Source: Haloarcula marina (GTDB taxonomy: Archaea > Halobacteriota > Halobacteria > Halobacteriales > Haloarculaceae). Taken from it: a stretch of DNA of 64,000 bases. Where the stretch lies: positions 1,550,001 through 1,614,000 of the forward strand of contig NZ_CP100404.1 of the NCBI RefSeq assembly GCF_024218775.1, written 5' to 3'. Shown in pieces: positions 38,536 to 50,732 of this stretch. The notes beneath the pieces are model-generated. The model was not told the origin of the DNA and ran no database searches. It saw only the letters and a program-made list of their open reading frames with translations. Numbering within the stretch: the first letter of the stretch is position 1; the number at the start of each line of letters is the position of its first letter. Position numbers and translations under genes: made by a program.

Positions 38536-39294
38536 ATGCACGATATCGACACGGACACCCTCGACACCGTCGCCGACGCCCTCCGGCGGGCCGACACCGC
38601 CGTCGCGCTGACCGGTGCGGGCGTCTCGACGGCGTCGGGCATTCCCTCGTTCCGCGGCGAAGACGGTATCTGGGACCGCTTCGACCCGACGGATTTCCAC
38701 CGTCGACGGTTCGACGCCGACCCCGCTGGCTTCTGGGCCGACCGGCGTACGCTCCGGGAGGAGATGTACGGCGACGTGAAACCCGGCCCGAACGCCGCAC
38801 ACGACGCGTTGGCGGCGCTGGAAGCCGAGGGGCACGTCGACGCCGTCGTGACGCAGAACGTCGACGGCCTCCACGCCGACGCCGGAAGCCAACGCGTGGT
38901 CGAACTCCACGGCACGCACCGCCGCGTGCGGTGTGACGACTGCGGTGACCGCCGTCCGGCCGACCCGGTGTTCGCCGCGGCGGCCGACGGTGACCTCCCG
39001 CCACGGTGTGACTGCGGCGGCGTGTACCGGCCCGACGTGGTGCTGTTCGGGGAATCACTGCCGGACGACGCGCTGACGGACGCGCAGGGACTGGCCCGCG
39101 AAAGCGACGTGTTCCTCGCCGTTGGGTCGTCCCTGTCGGTCAGACCCGCCTCGTTACTGCCAAAGATAGCCGTCGACTCGGGGGGTCGATTCGTCGTCGT
39201 GAACTTCGACGAGACGACGCGGGACGGGGCGGCGACAGACGTGATTCGGGAGGACGTTACGGACGTGCTACCCGCGCTCGAAGAGCGGGTCTAG
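38536..39294 (+). CDS. Sir2-type NAD-dependent protein deacylase
   Basis: Sirtuins remove acyl groups from lysine using NAD+. The 252-residue protein has GAGVSTASGIPSFRG (about 27-41), TQNVDGLH (106-113), catalytic His125 in ELHGTHRR, and a zinc site of Cys133, Cys136, Cys158 and Cys160. The late NAD motif GSSLSVRPA is present. Length is typical for short archaeal sirtuins. It ends overlapping the convergent DUF5793-like gene by 4 bases. Confidence 0.95.
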   Translation: MHDIDTDTLDTVADALRRADTAVALTGAGVSTASGIPSFRGEDGIWDRFDPTDFHRRRFDADPAGFWADRRTLREEMYGDVKPGPNAAHDALAALEAEGHVDAVVTQNVDGLHADAGSQRVVELHGTHRRVRCDDCGDRRPADPVFAAAADGDLPPRCDCGGVYRPDVVLFGESLPDDALTDAQGLARESDVFLAVGSSLSVRPASLLPKIAVDSGGRFVVVNFDETTRDGAATDVIREDVTDVLPALEERV

Positions 39295-39716
39295 AGTTCG
39301 ACGCCGCCGGGAATGAGGCTTCGCTGGCGGAGGAGGCTGCCGTCGTGGTCGTAGACGAGCAGCGTCCCCTTTTCGTACGCCACGGACTCGCCGTCGCTGT
39401 CGGTCAGGACCACGCGGTACTCCCCGTCGTCGTGGCTCTCGGCGGCGGCGACGAACCCGTCGATTTCGCCGGGGTCGGCCATGACTTCGAGGACGAACTC
39501 GCCGGTCATGCGGTTCGTCAGCGACAGGACGCCGCCGTCGGTGTCGGCCTGCCGTCGGAACGTTACGTCGACTTCGCCGCCGTCGAGTGTCTCGCCGGTC
39601 GCGGTCGTGAGGCGCTCTCGGAGTACACCCGACGGGCCGTCGTAGTCGATACTGAGCGTAGGTGTCCCGTCGTCGGGGTCTTCTCGGATGTCGAGCGTGA
39701 AGTAGTCGCGCCTCAT
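39291..39716 (-). CDS. DUF5793-like haloarchaeal protein
   Basis: A 141-residue soluble acidic protein starting MRRDYFTLDIRED, beta-rich through VDVTFRRQ, NRMTGEFVLEVMAD and YRVVLTDSDGES. I recall this family in haloarchaea as DUF5793, with no known role. It is divergent from the membrane protein gene at 39838, with 121 bases between them. Nothing in its sequence suggests a catalytic site. Confidence 0.78.
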   Translation of the reverse strand: MRRDYFTLDIREDPDDGTPTLSIDYDGPSGVLRERLTTATGETLDGGEVDVTFRRQADTDGGVLSLTNRMTGEFVLEVMADPGEIDGFVAAAESHDDGEYRVVLTDSDGESVAYEKGTLLVYDHDGSLLRQRSLIPGGVEL

Positions 39717-39837
39717 TCGGGTGATTGACGCTTGGGTCGCCGTCGCAATGAACGTAACGGCGGCGGCACCGACACAACCGTTTTGCGTCGGCGCTTTCGG
39801 TAGCTTTTACCCCGTCGCTGTCGCCGGTGCTGACAGG

Positions 39838-40341
39838 ATGACGTGGGTGAAGTCAGAGTACGCCGGAGAACTGGCCGTCCTCTCGACGTGGTTGGTAGCG
39901 CTGGCCCCGTGGTCGGCGTCTGTCTTCGAGGTGTCGAACCTGACGGTCGTCGCGCTTCGCTTCCTCCCCTTCAGGTTCCAGTTCATCTTCGGCGCGACCC
40001 TCGACAACGAGCGCCCGTTCCTCTGGGCGTGGGAAGTCGCCCGGTTCCAACAGTCGGCGGAACTCACGCTGGCGGGCTACGCCGGGTTCGCCGCCTTCCT
40101 CCTCTTTGCGGTCCCGTTCGCGCTGAGCCTGTTCTACTACTTCGAAGAGGAGCGACTGACCGACGCGCTGCCCGTCGACCCCGTGGCGCTGTTCGGGTGG
40201 TTACTCGCCGGTGTCGCCGCCCTCACCCTCGCCGCGACGGCGCTGTTCGTCCGGTACTTCCCGGGCCTGACCGTCCCCGTCGGGGCGGCCGTCGCCGCCG
40301 TCCTCGCGTACGTCCTGCTCACCAGCGAGCAGGCGGACTGA
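39838..40341 (+). CDS. membrane protein of unknown function
   Basis: A 167-residue protein with four membrane segments (about 10-28, 36-52, 75-98, 118-162 in two helices) and a charged loop YYFEEERLTDALP. A TATA-like CTTTTAC at 39804-39810 lies about 28 bases before the ATG, indicating a leaderless mRNA and deciding this start over in-frame codons upstream. No family assignment beyond conserved haloarchaeal membrane protein. Confidence 0.75.
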   Translation: MTWVKSEYAGELAVLSTWLVALAPWSASVFEVSNLTVVALRFLPFRFQFIFGATLDNERPFLWAWEVARFQQSAELTLAGYAGFAAFLLFAVPFALSLFYYFEEERLTDALPVDPVALFGWLLAGVAALTLAATALFVRYFPGLTVPVGAAVAAVLAYVLLTSEQAD

Positions 40342-40439
40342 ATCTGCGGACGGAGTGGTACGAACCGGGCGCGCGAATTTAAGTAGGTGGCCACATAATG
40401 GCTGATAACTGCTGTCCGACCCATCTTCACTGGCTACCG

Positions 40440-42062
40440 ATGGCTAACCCCGAGACACCTGCCCCCGGCGACGTCGTCCGCGACCCACTCGGTCACGTGC
40501 AGTCGTGGCTCTCGCGCACCGCGAGTCTCCTCTCCGGGTCGGTCGTCCCGGAGTCGAACTACGACCCGAGCAGGCACGACTCGCTGGTGACTTTCGACGG
40601 CCTCGCTGGCTACGAGGAAATCGAGCGCTACTGGCTCAACGCCCCGTTCTCGTTCGTCTCCATCGAACACGACACGCAGAACGACGAGCACCTGTACCAC
40701 GTGGTCGAACCCTCGCTCACGGACATCGAATCCGAACTCTTAGACCGCCTGTACGACGACGTTCGCGGCCCGCTCATCTACCGCCGCGACGTGGAGACAG
40801 ACCCCGAGACGGCGCTCCGAGAGGAGTTGCGCGACCGTCTGGAGGAGTACGGCGTCGTCGTCGAACCCGAGACGTTCTACCGGTTGTTCTACTACCTCTA
40901 CCGCTCGTTTCAGGGGTACGGCTACATCGACCCGCTGATGCACGACCCCCACATCGAGGACATCTCCTGTGACGGGTCGAACCTCCCGATATTCATCTAC
41001 CACGACGACTACACCGATATCGAGTCGAACATCGTCTACGGCGAGGAGGAACTCGACGACTTCGTCATCCAGTTGGCGCAGCGCTCGGGCCAACACGTCT
41101 CCATCTCCGACCCCGTCGTCTCGACGACGCTCCCGGACGGGTCGCGTATCGAACTCGCGCTCGGCGAGGAAGTCACTCCGCGTGGCTCCGCGTTCACCAT
41201 CCGGAAGTACGCCGACGAACCGTTCACGCCCATCGACCTGCTGGAGTACGGCACCTTCTCGCTGGAGATGCTCGCGTACCTCTGGTTGGCTATCGAGTCC
41301 AACAAGTCGCTCATCTTCGCTGGCGGGACGGCGGCGGGCAAGACCACGTCGATGAACGCGCTGGCGATGTTCGTCCCGCCGCGTTCGAAGGTGCTGACCA
41401 TCGAGGACACCCGCGAACTGTCGCTGTACCACGACAACTGGCTCTCCTCGGTCACCCGCGAGCGACTCGACGACTCCGACATCACGATGTACGACCTGCT
41501 CCGGTCCGCCCTCCGTCATCGACCCGAGTACATCGTGGTTGGCGAGGTCCGCGGCGAGGAGGCCATCACGCTGTTTCAGGCGATGAACACCGGCCACACG
41601 ACGTTCTCGACGATGCACGCCGACTCGGTGCAGACGGTCATCAACCGACTGGAGAACGAACCTATCAACGTCCCCCGGCCGATGGTGCAGAGTCTCGACA
41701 TCCTCTGCGTGCAGGTGCTGACCCGGTCGGGCGACGAACGCGTCCGCCGTGCGAAGACGCTCGCGGAAATCGAGGGCATCGACCAGCGGACCGGCGAACT
41801 CGACTACTCGACGAGTTTCTCGTGGCGGGCGACCGAGGACCGATTCGCCGAGAACAACAGCGAACTGCTCGACGAGATTCGCGAGGAACGAGGGTGGAGC
41901 CAGTCGACCCTCCTCACCGAACTGAAAGACCGACAGCGGTTTCTGGAGTACCTCCGACAGCAGGAGGTCGGAGACTACCGTCGCTTCACCGCGATGGTCA
42001 ACAAGTACTACGCCGACAAAGACGAAGTCATGGACCGCATCGGGTCCAGCGTGACGGTCTGA
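40440..42062 (+). CDS. type II/IV secretion (archaeal pilus) assembly ATPase, PilB/TadA-like
   Basis: Secretion ATPases of this group power assembly of type IV-like pili. The roughly 540-residue protein has an N-terminal all-alpha region (1-170). The RecA-like core carries Walker A GGTAAGKTTS near 295, the Asp box with LTIEDTREL, Walker B VGEVRGEEA and the His box FSTMHADS. TTTAAG at 40378-40383 is the TATA box, which places transcription start near 40405 and favours ATG 40440. An ATG at 40398 would add 14 residues. One base separates it from the PilC partner. No pilin gene is next to it. Confidence 0.92.
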   Translation: MANPETPAPGDVVRDPLGHVQSWLSRTASLLSGSVVPESNYDPSRHDSLVTFDGLAGYEEIERYWLNAPFSFVSIEHDTQNDEHLYHVVEPSLTDIESELLDRLYDDVRGPLIYRRDVETDPETALREELRDRLEEYGVVVEPETFYRLFYYLYRSFQGYGYIDPLMHDPHIEDISCDGSNLPIFIYHDDYTDIESNIVYGEEELDDFVIQLAQRSGQHVSISDPVVSTTLPDGSRIELALGEEVTPRGSAFTIRKYADEPFTPIDLLEYGTFSLEMLAYLWLAIESNKSLIFAGGTAAGKTTSMNALAMFVPPRSKVLTIEDTRELSLYHDNWLSSVTRERLDDSDITMYDLLRSALRHRPEYIVVGEVRGEEAITLFQAMNTGHTTFSTMHADSVQTVINRLENEPINVPRPMVQSLDILCVQVLTRSGDERVRRAKTLAEIEGIDQRTGELDYSTSFSWRATEDRFAENNSELLDEIREERGWSQSTLLTELKDRQRFLEYLRQQEVGDYRRFTAMVNKYYADKDEVMDRIGSSVTV

Positions 42063-42063
42063 C

Positions 42064-44511
42064 ATGGCGCTGAACCCGATAGGGCTGGCCCCGCTTATCG
42101 TCGTCGCCTGCATCCTCGCCGGGGCGGCGCTGGCCTCGGTGAGCGAGGGATTCGACCGCCGCGTGACGCGGTTCGCCCGCCGCTTGTTCGGCCGGTACGT
42201 CACGGCCGCGCCGGAACGCGAGCGCCAACTCGAAGCGGCCTACATCGGACAGACGTACCGGGGGTACGCGGCCCGAACGCTCCTGATTACCGGGCTCGCC
42301 GCCCTCGGCGGCGCGGCGGCCGGGGCATATGTCGTCGGCGGATTCTTACTCCTCGTCCCGACTATCGTCGACCTGCTGATGGGACTGCCGCGGACGATGG
42401 TGAACGCGCTCGGCATCCGGGGGTTCGAACTCGTTCTGACAGGGCGCCAGACGCTGGGTATCCTCATCGGAAGCGGGGTCGTCTTCGGTATCGGATGCGC
42501 CGCCGTCGCCTACTGGCTTCGCTGGGAACTCCCGCGGAACACGGCGGAGGTGCGTCGGCGGAATATCAACGAGGGGATGACACGCACCATCGCGTTCATG
42601 TACGCGCTCTCGCGCGGTGGGGTCGCATTCCCGGATGTGATGCGCGTGCTGGCGAGGAACGACGATATCTACGGCGAGACGGCCCGGGAGATAAGCATCG
42701 CTATCCGGGAGATGGACATGTTCGGCAAGGACATGATAACGGCCATCGAACGGATGACCGCCCGAACGCCCAGCGAGGAGTTCAAGACCTTCGCGGAGAA
42801 TCTCTCCAGCGTCCTCCAGAGCGGCCAGTCGCTGTCGACGTTCCTCAACGACCAGTACGAGCGGTATCAGGAGGAGGCCGCGGAGCGACAGGCCGACCTG
42901 CTCGAATCGCTCGCCACCATCGCCGAGGCGTACGTCACCATCTTGGTCGCCGGGGTGCTGTTCCTCATCACCATTCTGCTCGTCTTCGGTCTGACGACGA
43001 CGGACACCCTCGTATTCCTGCAACTACTCGGCTACCTCGCGATTCCGCTGGCGAACCTCGGCTTCATGGTGTATCTGGGGCAGAAACTCGACGCCCTGGG
43101 CATCGGGCGAGCGGGAACGACGGGGGTCCTCGACCGGCAAGACCTCTCGGCGCTCGGCCGTCCGAAACCGGTCCAGACGCGGACCGGGGTGACCGACGGC
43201 GGGATGCTCCCCAACGAGGGGGCCAACTGGCGGCGACTCCGGATGTACGACCGCGTCCGGGCGGTGAGACGGACGCTTCGCTCGCCGGTCCAGACGCTCG
43301 TCTGGAACCCCTCAAAAGTGCTGTACCTCGCGGTCCCGGTCGCTATCGTGTTGTTCGCGGTCCGCGCACCGCAGGCGTTCCAGACCGGGTCGATGAACGT
43401 TCGACTGCTCGACGACTTTCTCGTCCAGTCCGCGCTCGTCGTGCTCGGGTCGTTCGCCGTCGTTCGGACGCTCTATACGCGGCGCGTCCAGCGCATCGAG
43501 GCGGCGACGCCGGAACTGCTCGAACGGTTGGCGAGCCTCAACGAGGCGGGGATGACGCTCGTCGAGAGCCTGCGCCGGGTTCGAGGGAGCGAGGTGGGTG
43601 TCCTCTCGCCCGAAGTCGACCGCATCTGGGCGGACATCCGGATGGGCGCGAACGTCGAGGACGCGCTTATCCGGTTCGGCCGCCGAATTCGAACGGTGGC
43701 GATTACGCGGGTGGTGACGCTGGTGACGCACGCGATGCAGGCCTCGGGGCAACTCGGCCGCGTGCTCCGAATCGCCGCCTCCCAGTCGCGGGCGGACCGG
43801 AGACTCCAGAAGCGCCGCCAACAGCAGATGCTCACCTACCTCGTCGTCATCTACGTCTCCTTTCTCGTCTTTCTGGTCATCATCGTCGCCGTCCAAGAGG
43901 TACTGGTCCCCAGTCTCCCCTCGTCCGTGCCGACGCCGCCCTCCTCGAACCGCCTCGGCGTCGGCGTCGACCAGTTCGCACGTCTCGGCCAAGTCGATAA
44001 GGCGGCGTACACACTCGTCTTCTTCCACACGGCGCTGATTCAGGCCGTGTTGACCGGGTTCGTCGGCGGCCAGTTAGGTGAGGGGTCGCTCCGCGACGGG
44101 GCGAAACACGCCGCCGTGTTGCTCGGCTTCGCTTACCTCGTGTTCGTCCTGCTGTCCTCGCCGGTGGCCTCGATGACGATAACCGAGCCTACCGTCGAGA
44201 ACGGCCAGATTTCGGTCGATTCGGCATCGCTGTCCAGCGGCGGATTCCTCGTCGTCCACGCCCACGACGAGGACGGGCGAGTCGTCGGCGTCTCCCCGTA
44301 CCTCGCCCCGGGGTCACACAGCGACGTGTCCGTCCAGTTGGACAACCCGCCGTCGGCGGGCCAGGACGTCGTCGTCGTCGCCCACCGCGACACCAACGGG
44401 AACGGCGTCCTCGACTACGACTTCGAGTTCCCCGGTTCCGACGCGACCGACCGACCCTACCCGGCCTCCGGGCAGAGCCAGACCGTCTCGGTGACGGTCG
44501 AGTTGGAGTGA
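42064..44511 (+). CDS. type II secretion F / PilC-TadC-like membrane platform protein with C-terminal extension
   Basis: The 815-residue platform protein pairs with the upstream ATPase. Two GspF-type domains are recognisable (about 165-340 with SRGGVAFPDVMRVLA; about 475-640 with LNEAGMTLVESLRRVRGSE). They alternate with about nine membrane helices. A final membrane segment near 690 is followed by a 110-residue extracellular beta domain resembling haloarchaeal DUF7282: VSPYLAPGSHSDVSV and HRDTNGNGVLDYDFEF. Haloarchaeal PilC proteins are usually shorter and, as far as I know, lack this end. The gap to the ATPase is one base. Confidence 0.9.
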   Translation: MALNPIGLAPLIVVACILAGAALASVSEGFDRRVTRFARRLFGRYVTAAPERERQLEAAYIGQTYRGYAARTLLITGLAALGGAAAGAYVVGGFLLLVPTIVDLLMGLPRTMVNALGIRGFELVLTGRQTLGILIGSGVVFGIGCAAVAYWLRWELPRNTAEVRRRNINEGMTRTIAFMYALSRGGVAFPDVMRVLARNDDIYGETAREISIAIREMDMFGKDMITAIERMTARTPSEEFKTFAENLSSVLQSGQSLSTFLNDQYERYQEEAAERQADLLESLATIAEAYVTILVAGVLFLITILLVFGLTTTDTLVFLQLLGYLAIPLANLGFMVYLGQKLDALGIGRAGTTGVLDRQDLSALGRPKPVQTRTGVTDGGMLPNEGANWRRLRMYDRVRAVRRTLRSPVQTLVWNPSKVLYLAVPVAIVLFAVRAPQAFQTGSMNVRLLDDFLVQSALVVLGSFAVVRTLYTRRVQRIEAATPELLERLASLNEAGMTLVESLRRVRGSEVGVLSPEVDRIWADIRMGANVEDALIRFGRRIRTVAITRVVTLVTHAMQASGQLGRVLRIAASQSRADRRLQKRRQQQMLTYLVVIYVSFLVFLVIIVAVQEVLVPSLPSSVPTPPSSNRLGVGVDQFARLGQVDKAAYTLVFFHTALIQAVLTGFVGGQLGEGSLRDGAKHAAVLLGFAYLVFVLLSSPVASMTITEPTVENGQISVDSASLSSGGFLVVHAHDEDGRVVGVSPYLAPGSHSDVSVQLDNPPSAGQDVVVVAHRDTNGNGVLDYDFEFPGSDATDRPYPASGQSQTVSVTVELE

Positions 44512-44564
44512 CTCCGGGTCGGGAATGAATGGGTTTACCCTCGCCCACCGGATACCGACAGCCG

Positions 44565-46217
44565 ATGGAGTTCGCTGACTTCGCCGCCCGCGCGTCCGAA
44601 ATCGAGTCCGAGAGCGCCGATATCGCCATCACGGAATCGGTCACCGAACTGCTCGGCGAGGCGGACGACGACTTGGCGACGCTCGCGCGGTTCGTGCAGG
44701 GGCGGGTGTTCCCCGCCCACGAGTCGACGACGCTCGATATCGGGCCGCGATTGTGCTACGAGGCCATCGCGCGCGCCGCGGGGCAGAACGTGAGCGCCGA
44801 CGACGTGGAGACCCGGTTGGCCGAGCGGGGTGAAATCGGCGAGGTGGCGGCGAGCTACGACTTCGGGGGGCAGCGCGGCCTGGCCGCGTTCGGGTCCGGC
44901 GGCGAGGACGCGCTCACCGTCGCGACCGTCGCCGACGAACTGTCGGCTCTCGCCGCCGTGACGGGGTCGGGGAGCCAGGAGACGAAAGTCGACATGCTGT
45001 TCGGGCTATTCAACCGCGCGGACCCCGAGGAAGCCCGCTATCTCGCACGCCTCGTCCTCTCGGAGATGCGTATCGGGGTCGGCGACGGCACCGTCCGCGA
45101 CGCCATCGCGGCCGCCTTCGACGCGCCGGTCGACGCCGTCGAACGTGCGCTCCAGGTCTCGAACGACTACGGCTACGTCGCCGAGGTGGCCCGCGACGAG
45201 GGCGAAACGGGACTCGCCGCAATCGACCTCGAAGTCGGCCGCCCAGTGCAAGCGATGCTCGCCCAGGCCGGGACGAGTACCGGGGCGCTCGAAGACTGGG
45301 AAGCGGTCGCCGTCGAGTGGAAGTACGACGGCGCTCGCGTACAGGTCCACTTCGACGGCGAGTCGGCCCGCCTGTTCTCGCGAAACATGGAGGAGGTGAC
45401 CGACCCGCTTCCCGAAATCGTCGCCACCGTCGACGACGCGCTGGAGACACCGGCTATCCTCGACGGCGAGGTGGTCGCCGTCGACGACGACGGCGCGCCG
45501 CTCCCGTTTCAGGAGGTCCTCCGGCGGTTCCGCCGGAAACACGACGTGGCCGCCACCCGCGAGGACGTGACCGTCCGTCTGCATCTGTTCGACTGTCTGC
45601 ACGCCGACGGCGAGGATTTGCTCGACGCGCCGTTGCGCGAGCGACACGACCGCCTCGAATCGCTGTTTCCCCCGGATACCGTCTCGGACCTGTGGACCAC
45701 CGACGACCCGGCCCGAATCGCGGACATCGAGGCCGAAGCGCTGGAGGCGGGCCACGAGGGAATCATGCTGAAGGACCCCGACGCGGCGTACACGCCCGGC
45801 AAGCGCGGGAAGAACTGGCGCAAGCGCAAACCCGACGTGGAGACGCTCGACTGCGTGATCACCGGGGCCGAATGGGGCGAAGGCCGCCGGGCGAACGTCC
45901 TCGGAACGTTCGAACTCTCGGTACGCACGGACGACGGATTCGCGCACGTCGGCAACGTCGCCACCGGGTTCACCGACGCGGAACTGGACGCGGTGACCGA
46001 GCGCCTCGAACCGCACATCTCTGCCGAATCCGGGCGCGAAGTGGCCCTCGACCCGCATCTCGTCTTCGAGGTCGGCTACGAGGAGATACAGACCTCTTCG
46101 AACTACGACGCCGGGTACGCGCTCCGGTTCCCCCGCTTTCTCGCCGTCCGCGAGGACAAGACCCCCGACGATGCGGACTCGCTGTCGCGGGTCGGACGAC
46201 TCGCCGACGCCGAGTGA
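44565..46217 (+). CDS. lig: ATP-dependent DNA ligase
   Basis: Seals nicks in DNA replication and repair. The 550-residue archaeal-type ligase has an N-terminal DNA-binding domain (1-200). The adenylation motif I is EWKYDGARVQ with nucleophile Lys253, motif III is FSRNME, motif IV is EGIMLKDP, motif V is KPDVETLDCVI, and the C-terminal OB fold has FEVGYEEIQTS. ATG at 44565 (MEFADFAARA) is the family start; an in-frame ATG 36 bases upstream is less likely. It stands behind the pilus genes but is unrelated to them. Confidence 0.95.
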   Translation: MEFADFAARASEIESESADIAITESVTELLGEADDDLATLARFVQGRVFPAHESTTLDIGPRLCYEAIARAAGQNVSADDVETRLAERGEIGEVAASYDFGGQRGLAAFGSGGEDALTVATVADELSALAAVTGSGSQETKVDMLFGLFNRADPEEARYLARLVLSEMRIGVGDGTVRDAIAAAFDAPVDAVERALQVSNDYGYVAEVARDEGETGLAAIDLEVGRPVQAMLAQAGTSTGALEDWEAVAVEWKYDGARVQVHFDGESARLFSRNMEEVTDPLPEIVATVDDALETPAILDGEVVAVDDDGAPLPFQEVLRRFRRKHDVAATREDVTVRLHLFDCLHADGEDLLDAPLRERHDRLESLFPPDTVSDLWTTDDPARIADIEAEALEAGHEGIMLKDPDAAYTPGKRGKNWRKRKPDVETLDCVITGAEWGEGRRANVLGTFELSVRTDDGFAHVGNVATGFTDAELDAVTERLEPHISAESGREVALDPHLVFEVGYEEIQTSSNYDAGYALRFPRFLAVREDKTPDDADSLSRVGRLADAE

Positions 46218-46264
46218 CCGCGGCGACCGATAGTCGTATCCCACCGGTGCGTGTACGCCCGTCC

Positions 46265-47011
46265 ATGACCATCAGACACGACGGTATCACGGCCGAATGG
46301 CTCGGGTACGCGACGCTCAAACTATCGGACGGCGAGACGACGGTCTATCTCGACCCCGGGCGATACGGCGTCCTCACCGGCGAGTGGGAACCCGATACGC
46401 CCGGCGTCGGCCATCCGAAGACGCGTGACTACGCGCCGAAGGACGGCGATATCGTCTGTGTCACGCACATTCATCACTACGACCCGGACGGCATCCGTCG
46501 CGTCGCCAGCGACGACGCCACCGTCGTCGCGTTCGAGGGCATCAACGTCCACCAGTCTGACCGCGACCTCGATAGACTCGCGGACCTCGACTACGAGGTC
46601 CGAAAAGTCGGGATGGAAGACGAACTGCTCGTCGGCGACGTGCCTATCTGGACGATGCCAGCGTACAACCGCGAAGACGGCCCGAACGTCGACGCGAACG
46701 GCGACCCGCACCATCCGAAGGGTATCGGCTGTGGATTCCTCGTCGCGCTGGACGACACCCGCGTGTTCTGGCCGGGCGATTCGGACGTGCTCCCGGGCCA
46801 CGCCGAACTCGACGTGTCGCTGTTCGTCCCGTCTATCTCACAGAGCTATACGATGGACCGTCACAGCGCGGCCGACCTCGCCGCGGAGATGGACCCGGAC
46901 CTCGTCCTCCCCATCCACTACAACACGTTCACCGCGCTTGAGGCGGACGACGAGGCGTTCGCCGCCGACGTGGCGGGCCGTCGAGTCCCGGTCGTCTTGG
47001 ACCGCGACTGA
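46265..47011 (+). CDS. MBL-fold metal-dependent hydrolase (UlaG-like)
   Basis: A 248-residue metallo-beta-lactamase-fold protein. TIRHDGITAEWLGYATLKL is the first strand pair, THIHHYDPDGI the HxHxxD motif, FWPGDSDVLP the Asp ligand region and VLPIHYNTF the final His. The ATG at 46265 (MTIRHDGI) fits the family. It follows DNA ligase by 47 bases; a role in nucleic acid metabolism cannot be inferred from that alone. Confidence 0.88.
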   Translation: MTIRHDGITAEWLGYATLKLSDGETTVYLDPGRYGVLTGEWEPDTPGVGHPKTRDYAPKDGDIVCVTHIHHYDPDGIRRVASDDATVVAFEGINVHQSDRDLDRLADLDYEVRKVGMEDELLVGDVPIWTMPAYNREDGPNVDANGDPHHPKGIGCGFLVALDDTRVFWPGDSDVLPGHAELDVSLFVPSISQSYTMDRHSAADLAAEMDPDLVLPIHYNTFTALEADDEAFAADVAGRRVPVVLDRD

Positions 47012-47020
47012 CGAACTCGG

Positions 47021-47182
47021 TCACTCGGCCGCCGCCAGCGAGTCGAACCGGTCCCAGCATTCACAGTCGAGGTCCTCCAAACTCGTCACTTCGTCGGGGA
47101 AGGAACTCACGGGCATCCCGTCGTCGAACTGGTCGCACTCCTCGCGGTGCAGCGAGAAGTCGTCGCTGGACATGACGGGCAT
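47021..47182 (-). CDS. small acidic protein, unknown
   Basis: A 53-residue protein (MPVMSSDDFSLHRE...) with CECWDRF near the C-terminus and one further Cys (EECDQF), possibly metal binding. Second ATG three codons in. The frame extends far upstream, but only this part has the acidic haloarchaeal composition. A TATA-like stretch (ATCTCGCTATACTCG, minus strand) lies just upstream. It sits between the convergent MBL gene and top6A. Confidence 0.5.
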   Translation of the reverse strand: MPVMSSDDFSLHREECDQFDDGMPVSSFPDEVTSLEDLDCECWDRFDSLAAAE

Positions 47183-47235
47183 GGCTATAGTCTGCGAGTA
47201 TAGCGAGATAAAGTTTCGTTCTCGGGCAGTCTTCG

Positions 47236-48339
47236 CTACAACACGCCCATCTCGGTCAGGCGCTCTGGGAGGTAGGTATCGGTCACGAAGTCGAGGCCGC
47301 GCGAGGCGAGCGCCTGCTGTTCCGCCTTCTTCCCGATGTCGAGTTGGAGTTCGATTTGCTCCTTCCAGAAGTCGGTCTGGAAGCGGGGGTCTTCCAGTTC
47401 CGATTCCAGCGCGTTGATGTCCGAATCGCTCAGCGGGTCCGTCGGCAGGTCGTAGTCGACGATGTCCTGTGGCCGGATGCCGACGAACTCCGCCTCCGGC
47501 GTCGCGAGGTACTCCGAGAGGTGGGCCGACTTGATGGACCCGTAGGCGACGGACCCGTAGATGCGGTACGACCACGGGTCGCCGTCTGTGAAGACCACGA
47601 CTGGCAGGTCGAGTTCGTCGTGGAGGCGCTTGGTGATGCGCCGGGTCGCCCGCGCCGGTTGCCCTTTGAGGTGGACGACGATGACGTTGTACTCCTCGTC
47701 GAACCCGTTCTCGACGAGTCGGTCCCGCATCCCGCCGGTCTCCACGCACAGGATGAAGTCGGCGTCGTGGTCGAGGAACTCGATGGTGTCGGGGTTGTTC
47801 GGAATCTGATACCCCCCTTCGCCAACGTCCTCCTGACAGTGTATCTCGCGCTCGCCGCGGCGGGTCTGCTCGCGAATCTGGAGCGGCCCCATCAGCGTCG
47901 CCCCCGACTCCTCCGGGCGCATGTGGAAGTCCTCGCGGGTGACCTCAGAGACGATTTCCAAGTCCTCGACGAGGTCGTTGGACTCGTCCTGGCTCTCGAA
48001 CTGCGCTTCTTCGAGGTCCCACGACTCGGAGAGGTAGTACAGTTCACGCAGGGTCGACGAGCGGTCCTCGTCGAGTTGTTGCGCGAGGAAATCGATGGTG
48101 TAGGTCGCTTTCAACAGCTTCTCCGCCCCGGAGACGGTCTTGGCCGACCGCGTCGACTGCCGGTCGCCGTACACCCACACGTCCTTGTCCTCGTCGTACT
48201 CGATGTTGGACTTGGTCCGGGTGGGAATCGACATCGTGGGCACGTCGCCCTCTGCGAACTGGTCGTAGAACTCCGCCGCGAGGTCGATGAGTTTCTCGCG
48301 GGCCACTCTCGATTGGGGTGCGTCGTTGTCCGTGCTCAT
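47236..48339 (-). CDS. top6A: DNA topoisomerase VI subunit A
   Basis: Top6A is the Spo11-like cleavage subunit of type IIB topoisomerase. The 367-residue protein has the 5Y-CAP domain with the catalytic tyrosine region [12 protein letters not shown] (Tyr101/Tyr102). The Toprim domain has [12 protein letters not shown] and [22 protein letters not shown] at 48339 (MSTDNDAPQ). It directly follows top6B with a 2-base gap, so the A2B2 enzyme is made from one transcript. Confidence 0.96.
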
Positions 48340-48341
48340 GG

Positions 48342-50732
48342 TTAGGCGTCCACCGTCAGTTTCTCGTCTTCGACACCGTCGACGGAGACGGTGAACTCGG
48401 CGTCGTCTGTCACGCGGTACTCCAGCGTCGCGGACTCGCCAGCGGCGACGGTCGGCGACCACTTCACGAACCACTCGCCGTCCATCTCGACCACCGTCGC
48501 CCCGTTCGTGTCCTGGGGTTCGGCGGTGACGATGTCGGTCAGGTCCACGTCGGCGTTCGTGTCGTCGTTGTTCTCGACGGTCAACCGGACCGTCTCGCCG
48601 TCGAACTCGCGTTCGACGAGGACGTTGTTCATGATCCGGGCCAGCGAGTCGTCGATGTGCAACTCGTCGTTGCCCGTCACTTCGGTCAGTTTCTCGGCCA
48701 TCTCGGGGAGGATGGTCGCGAGTTTGTCCTGCTTCTTCCGGCGCTGTTGGAGCGAGCGGCGCTTGTTGAGGTAACTCTTGAGTTCGCGGGCGGCCTCCCG
48801 GATGGCGAGTTCGATTTCGTCTTCCATCTCGGGGATGTTCGCGATGGCGTCCTTGGACTCGCTCGTGAAGGGCACGTTCGTCGACGCGACGTGGACCATG
48901 ATGACCGCCGGACCGTTCGGAATGCCCGACCCGCCGGGTTGGTCCAAGTTGTAGTTGCGCCAGTTGATGCCCTTGATGACGTCCGTCGTCGCACAGGCCC
49001 CGCGCTGATAGACGAGGGGGACGCGGTTAGCGAAGCGCATCACGTCGACGGGCCCGTCGGCCTGGAGGTCGCCGCCGTAGGCGATGCCCGCCTCGACGAT
49101 GAACGGGTCGCCGCCGTGGACGGCCGCATCGCGGGTCGAGGCGGCGTAGAAGTCGGCCTCGAACTCCTTGCGAAGCCCCTTCTCGACGAGGTCCGCGCCG
49201 ATGGGCGAGAGGCAGTCGGTCGGCGGGGCGATGATGTCCGTCTCGCGCATCGCCTCCAGTAGATTACTCGCCGTATCCCGGTCGTCCGCGACTTCGGAGA
49301 CGTTCGGCGGGTCGTCGGGGACGGGGACGGCGGCGTCCCACAACTGGTCGAGGACGTTCTCGCGGGCCGTCTCGCCGAAGGTGGCGTCGTCGTGTTCCTC
49401 GGTCATGTCGGCCGCCCGGTCGACGTACCGGCGGAACTCGTCTCGGGTGAGGCGGTGGCGACTCTCCGTGTCGAACTTCTCCGCGAGTCGACTCGCCATC
49501 CCCTCGATGGCCGCGTCGTCTTTCCGCACGGTGGTCGCCGCGTCGACCAGTTCGTACAGGTCGCTGTTTCGTTCGGCCGTCACCGCGGCCCACGCGGCCT
49601 CGACGGCGTTCTCTCGAACCGTGGACCCGAACGTAGTGTCGTGTGCGGCCTCGGCGTCTTCGGCGGCGTCGGCGACGATGGCCTCGATTTCGTGGTGGGC
49701 CACGCGGTCGCGGTCGTGGATTTCGTCGGACACGGCGGCGGCGAACTCGGCGGTGGCCGTCGCGCCCTTGTTGGCGACGGCCTCCTCGACGGCCGTCTCG
49801 ATATCCACGTCCTCGTGGTGTTGGGGCGGCTTCCACGCCATCCCGCGGCCGAAGTGGCGGTCGTTGAAGTTGGCGATGATGCTGTCGGCCGTCTTCCCGC
49901 CGACGCGGGTGAACTCCCCTTGGACGAACCCAGAGATAGAGTAGGATTCCGTGGCTTCGAGCATCTTCAGGAGCGTCCCGAGTTCGACGCCGTGGGGGTG
50001 GGGCCGAATCTCGGAGGTCTCGGCGGGGAGTTCCGCGCCCTCGACGCGTTCGTACTTCAGGGGCTCGTCGAGGCCCGGTTCGTCGAACTCGATGCGGGCG
50101 TGGGGGTTGACGACGGCGGTGTCCTGAATGTAGTCGTGGAGGCTCCCGCGCGAGCGCATGTTCGCCTCCATCTCCAACTCGATGCGCGTCCCGTGGGGCC
50201 GTTCCCACGAGGTGGTCTCGTCGACGCTAATCTCGGGTTCGTTCGTGTCGGTGTCGACGATGAGTTCGAAGTACTGCGCCTCGGACTGGCCCTTCGGCCG
50301 CGAGGTGATTTTCGCGGGCTTCCCCGAGGTGAGTTGGGAGTAGAGGACGGCGGCGGAGATACCGATACCCTGCTGACCGCGGCTCTGCTCGCGGGCGTGG
50401 AATCGGGAACCGTACAGCAGTTTCCCGAAGATTTTGGGGAGTTGTTCTTTCGTGATGCCAGGACCGTTGTCCTCGACGACGAGGCGGTAGTAGTCGCCGA
50501 CTTCCTGAATCTCGACGTAGATGTCGGGCTTGATTCCGGCCTCCTCACAGGCGTCAAGCGCGTTGTCGACGGCCTCCTTGACGGCTGTGACGAGCGCTCG
50601 GGCGTTCGAGTCGAACCCGAGCATGTGCTTGTTTTTCTCGAAGAACTCGGCGATGGAGATGGCCCGCTGGGACTCGGCCAACTCCTCGGCGATGCCCTCG
50701 CCTTCGCCGAGTCGCGACTGATACGAGGTCAT
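48342..50732 (-). CDS. top6B: DNA topoisomerase VI subunit B
   Basis: The 796-residue ATPase subunit opens and closes the DNA gate of topoisomerase VI. The GHKL domain (about 1-230) has [20 protein letters not shown] and [15 protein letters not shown]. An H2TH and a large acidic insertion follow (about 330-510), then the transducer domain with [11 protein letters not shown]. At the C-terminus about 90 residues form an Ig-like tail ([16 protein letters not shown]). Haloarchaeal Top6B proteins are known to be long. Divergent from gyrB; the TATA box TTTTAA is at 50760-50765 on the minus strand. Confidence 0.95.

Follow-up and report, generated by a model that had tools for sequence, protein, structure and literature searches.

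Among the closest described counterparts of the locus analysed here is the PilB3-PilC3 system of Haloferax volcanii, assigned to clade 2 by Makarova et al. 2016 (PMC4858521): its platform protein likewise exhibits two T2SSF domains, its partner ATPase carries PilB3_N and PilB3_C domains and its locus is without pilins. For the ATPase/TadC module of Halobacteria, the same paper suggests that it works with pilins that are encoded in trans. In the archaellum, ArlF and ArlG are described as anchoring the structure to the S-layer (PMC8667602), and ArlJ, the PilC homologue, is described as a presumed rotor, with a rotation of PilC having also been suggested (PMC8978795). Here, we report that, within a single family, a type IV pilus platform protein is fused to a surface-coat domain; the fusion is found in Haloarcula marina and its relatives and is most simply of one origin. 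We found no mention of a PilC-DUF7282 fusion in the titles and abstracts of the papers listed by our searches on pilus platforms and their anchoring, nor was DUF7282 found mentioned in the literature searched.

The gene lies in a window of 64,000 nucleotides (the whole stretch of DNA that was analysed; contig C1:1550001-1614000 of H. marina), with the following features given in window positions:

39291-39716, minus strand: DUF5793 gene, belonging to the conserved neighbourhood
39721-40341, plus strand: gene for a DUF7549 protein, part of the conserved neighbourhood
40398-42062, plus strand: pilB, gene for a PilB3-like ATPase directly upstream of pilC (T2SSE, PilB3_C and PilB3_N; translation may in fact begin at an ATG further downstream)
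42064-44511, plus strand: pilC, 815 aa, ATG start, encoding a platform protein in which Pfam finds T2SSF twice and DUF7282 at the C-terminal end
42595-42975, plus strand: first T2SSF domain, cytoplasmic by prediction (contig C1:1592595-1592975)
43519-43890, plus strand: second T2SSF domain, residues 486-609
43909-44004, plus strand: outer loop (residues 616-647) that joins predicted helices 8 and 9
44101-44178, plus strand: last predicted transmembrane helix, residues 680-705
44167-44499, plus strand: DUF7282 domain, a seven-stranded beta domain in the model
44299-44328, plus strand: YLAPGSHSDV motif, residues 746-755, common to DUF7282 of the S-layer type
44389-44418, plus strand: DTNGNGVLDY motif, residues 776-785

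The pilC reading frame (42064-44511) is complete, and the N-terminal residues of its product, MALNP.GLAP, are kept in orthologues. The original prediction was of a PilC-like platform protein whose DUF7282-like end bears the YLAPGSHSDV and DTNGNGVLDY motifs; Pfam finds the platform and the DUF7282 domains, and both motifs are present in the tail. T2SSF (PF00482, 1.4e-35) was matched in two stretches, and DUF7282 (PF23951) at residues 702-812 (3.7e-26, 92 bits against a cut-off of 27), with the tail as lone query reaching 97.7 bits; this match is well beyond chance. The nearest NCBIfam models to PilC are platforms of the ArlJ/FlaJ type, with a score under every curated cut-off, and no match to a haloarchaeal surface signal peptide or to PGF-CTERM was obtained with NCBIfam at E up to 1.

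The ATPase encoded upstream matches PF23990 (47.0 bits) and PF23989 (71.4 bits; cut-off of 27 in each case), i.e. the PilB3_N and PilB3_C domains. The order DUF5793 (opposite strand), DUF7549, PilB, PilC is common to tailed and untailed pilC genes: this neighbourhood is complete in some stretches and partial in others, and is reversed in L084 and partly so in L116. Given that tailed and untailed genes occupy one orthologous locus, one and the same gene has gained, or else lost, the tail, which does not mark a different pilus system. It had also been noted that the window holds no pilin or prepilin peptidase gene, which is true for both families tested: neither Pilin_N nor Peptidase_A24 is matched within it. 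Elsewhere on contig C1, Pilin_N matches lie at 1386-1388 kb, 2096 kb and 2591 kb, together with one under the cut-off at 899 kb, and the sole Peptidase_A24 match lies at 43 kb, outside the window. Beyond pilC (44529-50732), the next gene on the same strand encodes an ATP-dependent DNA ligase and is followed by opposite-strand genes for topoisomerase VI A and B; in other Haloarculaceae genera, several tailed pilC genes likewise have a ligase gene, a topoisomerase gene or both as neighbours.

A scan of the class using the whole protein returned relatives in 291 of 292 genomes: among the matches listed, the stop-free alignments reaching about residue 787-815 all belong to one family (f1), and most of the other matches listed stop near residue 700. 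As those relatives that bear names belong to Haloarcula and Halomicroarcula, this family is Haloarculaceae, the label that L048 and L049 also receive in the tree. We drew 73 orthologues from three sets of loci (12 of the 30, 9 of the 10 and all 52 of the 52 PilC loci), some rows being one species twice (L019 and L050 are identical) and L056 being left out as its gene is frame-shifted in the record. At least 100 residues follow the last helix in 37 of these 73 orthologues and at most 21 in the other 36, with none between; two PilC paralogues of H. marina exhibit neither residues after the last helix nor DUF7282. The domain is therefore not universal in haloarchaeal PilC, a possibility that had been raised against the original prediction, as it is absent from 36 of the 73 orthologues and from both H. 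marina paralogues examined.

When 391 genomes of the class (85 Haloarculaceae and 306 others; matches listed down to E 3.8e-15) were scanned with the last helix plus the tail, a match starting in the helix was obtained in 60 genomes, all of them Haloarculaceae. The fusion is carried by 60 of 60 genomes of the tailed genera (g1, g2, g4-g8, g11, g13, g80); among the matches listed, it is found in 0 of 25 genomes of the Haloarculaceae genera g3, g9, g10, g12, g78 and g86 and in 0 of 306 genomes outside the family. A tailed pilC was also seen in genera g81, g82, g83 and g85. In the family scan, apparent tail-less exceptions correspond to an N-filled stretch (G308), a frame shift (G343) and a contig end (G352), whilst G347 and G353 gave partial matches, the G303 match was broken across two frames and none was obtained at E 1e-60 in G340 or G355. 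The frame shifts of pilC in L056 (Halomicroarcula sp. SYNS111) and L119 (G343), the latter inside the tail, represent assembly errors or real losses. The PilC-DUF7282 fusion is neither an accident of the H. marina genome nor universal.

A maximum-likelihood tree built from 543 columns of the common core (H. marina loci L063-L065 left out) separates all 37 tailed rows from the others by a single branch (support 100/97); their sister group consists of the untailed Haloarculaceae rows, except for the long-branch L084. Judged from this tree, a single gain is the simplest history of the tail; the alternative, a gain in an earlier ancestor with subsequent loss in the sister clade, is a less simple possibility. 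The fusion is best explained as a single old gain that has been retained across 14 genera.

Averaged hydropathy indicates ten helices in PilC, and the positive-inside rule agrees with this and would assign both T2SSF domains to the cytoplasmic side and the tail to the outer side. Basic residues are abundant in the presumed cytoplasmic loops (29-72, 151-280, 339-414 and 470-588) and scarce in the others; the tail contains 16% acidic and 5% basic residues, compared with 11-17% K+R in the cytoplasmic domains, and DUF7282 otherwise occurs in secreted proteins and in proteins with signal peptides and PGF-CTERM. The frequency of N-glycosylation sequons (20 in 4514 tail residues versus 29 in 8288 residues of the cytoplasmic domains) is uninformative. 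Loop 668-680 exhibits few basic residues (mean K+R 1.0), which makes the placement of helices 9 and 10 the weak point of the prediction. The predicted topology puts the tail outside, where it had originally been proposed to project, and not in the cytoplasm, a placement that had been named in advance as counting against the proposal.

The outer loop that joins predicted helices 8 and 9 differs between the two groups of orthologues: variable in sequence and rich in Gly/Ser/Ala where the tail is absent, it became conserved in the tailed clade, where it reads P-LP--VPtP----RLGV--dqFARfG-vdKA. Its K+R content averages 3.2 (range 1-4) in the 37 tailed versus 0.6 (0-2) in the 36 untailed rows; in the tailed rows it would face an acidic tail. 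Of the 37 tailed rows, 33 exhibit a strict form of the RLGV..QFAR-G motif, as against none of the 36 untailed rows. Three of the four misses are near forms; the fourth, G002, the deepest tailed row and on a long branch, possesses the tail but a loop of the Ser/Gly type, which speaks against a strict pairing of the two traits. Identity of this loop between genera amounts to 0.58 in tailed Haloarculaceae, 0.26 in untailed Haloarculaceae and 0.22 in other families; in the same order, values are 0.64, 0.62 and 0.58 for the first T2SSF domain, 0.69, 0.71 and 0.60 for the second, 0.37, 0.16 and 0.30 for outer loop 107-129 and 0.39, 0.29 and 0.23 for the remaining outer loop. The T2SSF domains are thus similarly conserved in all groups. 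Against a special role of the helix 8-9 loop, loop 107-129 is likewise more alike in tailed than in untailed Haloarculaceae, if little more so than in other families, and the tail itself varies between genera (identity 0.35). The simplest reading of this pattern is that loop 616-647 has come into contact with a partner introduced along with the tail, in all likelihood the tail domain, and the change suggests docking. As it is one event on one branch, this coincidence of two traits is a lead rather than proof and does not count as independent support.

Our preferred reading, towards which we lean slightly, is that the tail acts as an extracytoplasmic brace at the base of the pilus, docked on the helix 8-9 loop. 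On this reading, the ancestor of one subclade of Haloarculaceae gained a single DUF7282 domain, similar to that found at the end of S-layer glycoproteins, behind the last helix of the PilC encoded at the class-wide pilB-pilC locus. The tail would sit in the space between membrane and S-layer, where it would fold as a small beta-sandwich, probably pack on the helix 8-9 outer loop and form a fixed brace or collar at the pilus exit that could hold the platform against the envelope during PilB-driven insertion of pilins; its outer partner could be the S-layer, a pilin or another protein, or else the tail may grip PilC alone. Whilst the data show the fusion itself, its confinement to one clade, its retention, the nearest relatives of the domain and the change of the loop, we infer the outside location, the docking on the loop and the brace function, as well as the seat at the pilus base and any effect on adhesion. 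A bolder version, which we put forward tentatively and regard as rather unlikely, is that the pilus motor has captured an S-layer module: the platform would then carry its own stator, tied to the envelope outside the membrane, and could not turn freely as the pilus grows. Were this the case, it would represent a second, independent invention of the role of ArlF/ArlG, achieved by domain fusion and not by duplication of a pilin.

Matches to DUF7282 are found at seven places in the H. marina genome. One is a 946-residue protein of the S-layer-glycoprotein type, in which DUF7282 is the last folded domain and which exhibits a surface signal peptide, a BGTF surface domain and PGF-CTERM (337 bits to the S-layer equivalog, whose cut-off is 1100); its gene adjoins that of archaeosortase A (L058:1059-5041, contig C1, about 2367-2371 kb). 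Two further DUF7282 proteins, one with CARDB and two DUF7282 copies, are encoded next to each other (L059:3479-6446, contig C1, about 12-15 kb). In other genomes, tandem S-layer-type genes are seen on G269 contig C9:251340-257831 (L150, L151), both with a near-terminal DUF7282 and a PGF-CTERM end; similar neighbouring pairs occur in other Haloarcula-type genomes, and head-to-tail arrays of five to seven DUF7282 copies occur in apparent membrane-anchored surface proteins (L129 in G306:C1, L130 in G287:C1, L137 in G315:C1). A profile of the PilC tail scores best with the single last domains of S-layer-type proteins (98-120 bits), with copies from tandem arrays reaching up to 96 and one multi-domain frame (L124) having a copy at 100.7; on these scores, the nearest relatives of the tail outside of PilC are the last domains of proteins of the S-layer-glycoprotein type. 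An unrooted tree of 81 DUF7282 domains, compatible with either direction of transfer, groups the PilC tails in one clade (100/98). The H. marina S-layer-type protein matches the solved S-layer protein of H. volcanii (7ptp) mainly over the linker and the PGF-CTERM end, and DUF7282 is therefore not equated here with the sixth domain of 7ptp.

This relationship invites the reading that the tail serves as an S-layer anchor, docking to the homologous DUF7282 of the S-layer or replacing it in the lattice, by analogy with the way in which ArlF fixes the archaellum. The kinship with S-layer-type last domains and the anchoring described for ArlF/ArlG speak for it, as does the result of a search with the H. 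marina S-layer-type protein in an H. japonica-like genome, where the PilC tail was the third match after two csg-type genes (72 bits, 41%). Membership of a common family does not, however, demonstrate binding, and in six genomes of two tailed genera (five of g5 and one of g7: G268, G327, G089, G079, G050, G069) no DUF7282 was found besides the PilC tail. Four of these (G089, G079, G050 and G069) encode BGTF surface-domain proteins above the cut-off, in frames of 842-1336 residues, and G268 and G327 have such matches only below it; with no further DUF7282 in these genomes, the candidate coat proteins there are without the domain and an S-layer DUF7282 partner is not needed. We consider such an anchor unlikely.

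Quite unlikely in our view is the reading that the tail aids only the folding, insertion or high-salt stability of PilC and has no outer partner. Identity of the tail between genera is 0.35 in the tailed rows, below the 0.64-0.69 of the T2SSF domains, and this faster divergence would fit, as would the same locus being kept tail-less in the untailed sister clade and in other families. However, across eight species pairs omega lies at 0.05-0.30 in the tail against 0.04-0.11 in the core, indicating that the tail is under purifying selection in all eight; it is, moreover, kept in every genome of the tailed genera scanned, and motif columns are fixed across the 37 tailed rows (G726, G727, G742, G750, D796 and Y799), with D776 retained in 97% of them. 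We take the DTNGNGVLDY motif to look like a calcium loop of the DxDxDG type, with calcium binding being putative.

The tail was modelled with seven strands at a mean pLDDT of 75 (76-92 for most blocks of the domain); the full-length AlphaFold model was unusable for topology or docking due to a mean pLDDT of 44.8 and a pTM of 0.26. The tail sequence found no match in the PDB, where a 20-row DUF7282 profile matched only calmodulin loops (E 0.068 and 1.5, taken as chance), and at an E threshold of 0.001 a fold search with the tail model was likewise without a match. VIA-align returned a best Z of 8.0, with immunoglobulin-like, C2 and carbohydrate-binding domains among many ties, as well as the archaeal pilin 8fk7 (Z 6.4); ArlF/ArlG were absent among the matches listed. 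These likenesses may reflect a common immunoglobulin-like arrangement and no specific relative. A role in surface display, in which the tail would reach outward as an adhesin-like or glycan-binding module held in the membrane by PilC, could draw on the weak likeness to carbohydrate-binding and adhesin domains and on the tandem DUF7282 arrays of surface proteins; but the fold likenesses are middling, and one domain of ~110 residues directly behind the helix would be unlikely to span the S-layer; we regard this role as very improbable. A cytoplasmic tail, suggested solely by the loosely placed helices 9 and 10 around the base-poor loop 668-680, is scarcely credible, as the tail would still be outside if both helices or neither crossed the membrane, its K+R content is below that of the cytoplasmic domains and its DUF7282 relatives are secreted.

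The fusion joins a surface-coat domain to a pilus machine, and sister lineages that have the same locus without the tail offer natural controls; since the rotation of PilC/ArlJ platforms is unsettled, a built-in outer domain of the S-layer type offers a handle on this question in Haloarcula. What would set it apart from the PilB3-PilC3 type of system is the tail: the untailed orthologues among the 73 examined end at most 21 residues past the last helix. The last domain of S-layer glycoproteins, which precedes a Thr/Glu linker and PGF-CTERM, exhibits the same DUF7282 motifs and about 36-44% identity in the best matches, whereas PilC is a polytopic platform without a match to the surface signal peptide or PGF-CTERM. 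The archaellum stator is described as having a beta-sandwich domain that lies between membrane and S-layer, next to a homologue of PilC (PMC8667602; for ArlJ, PMC8978795), a placement that the tail would resemble, although fold searches with the tail model yielded no specific relative; in contrast, ArlF and ArlG are separate, pilin-derived proteins with one N-terminal helix each, whilst the PilC tail is a DUF7282 domain fused to the platform itself as the C-terminal part of a polytopic protein.
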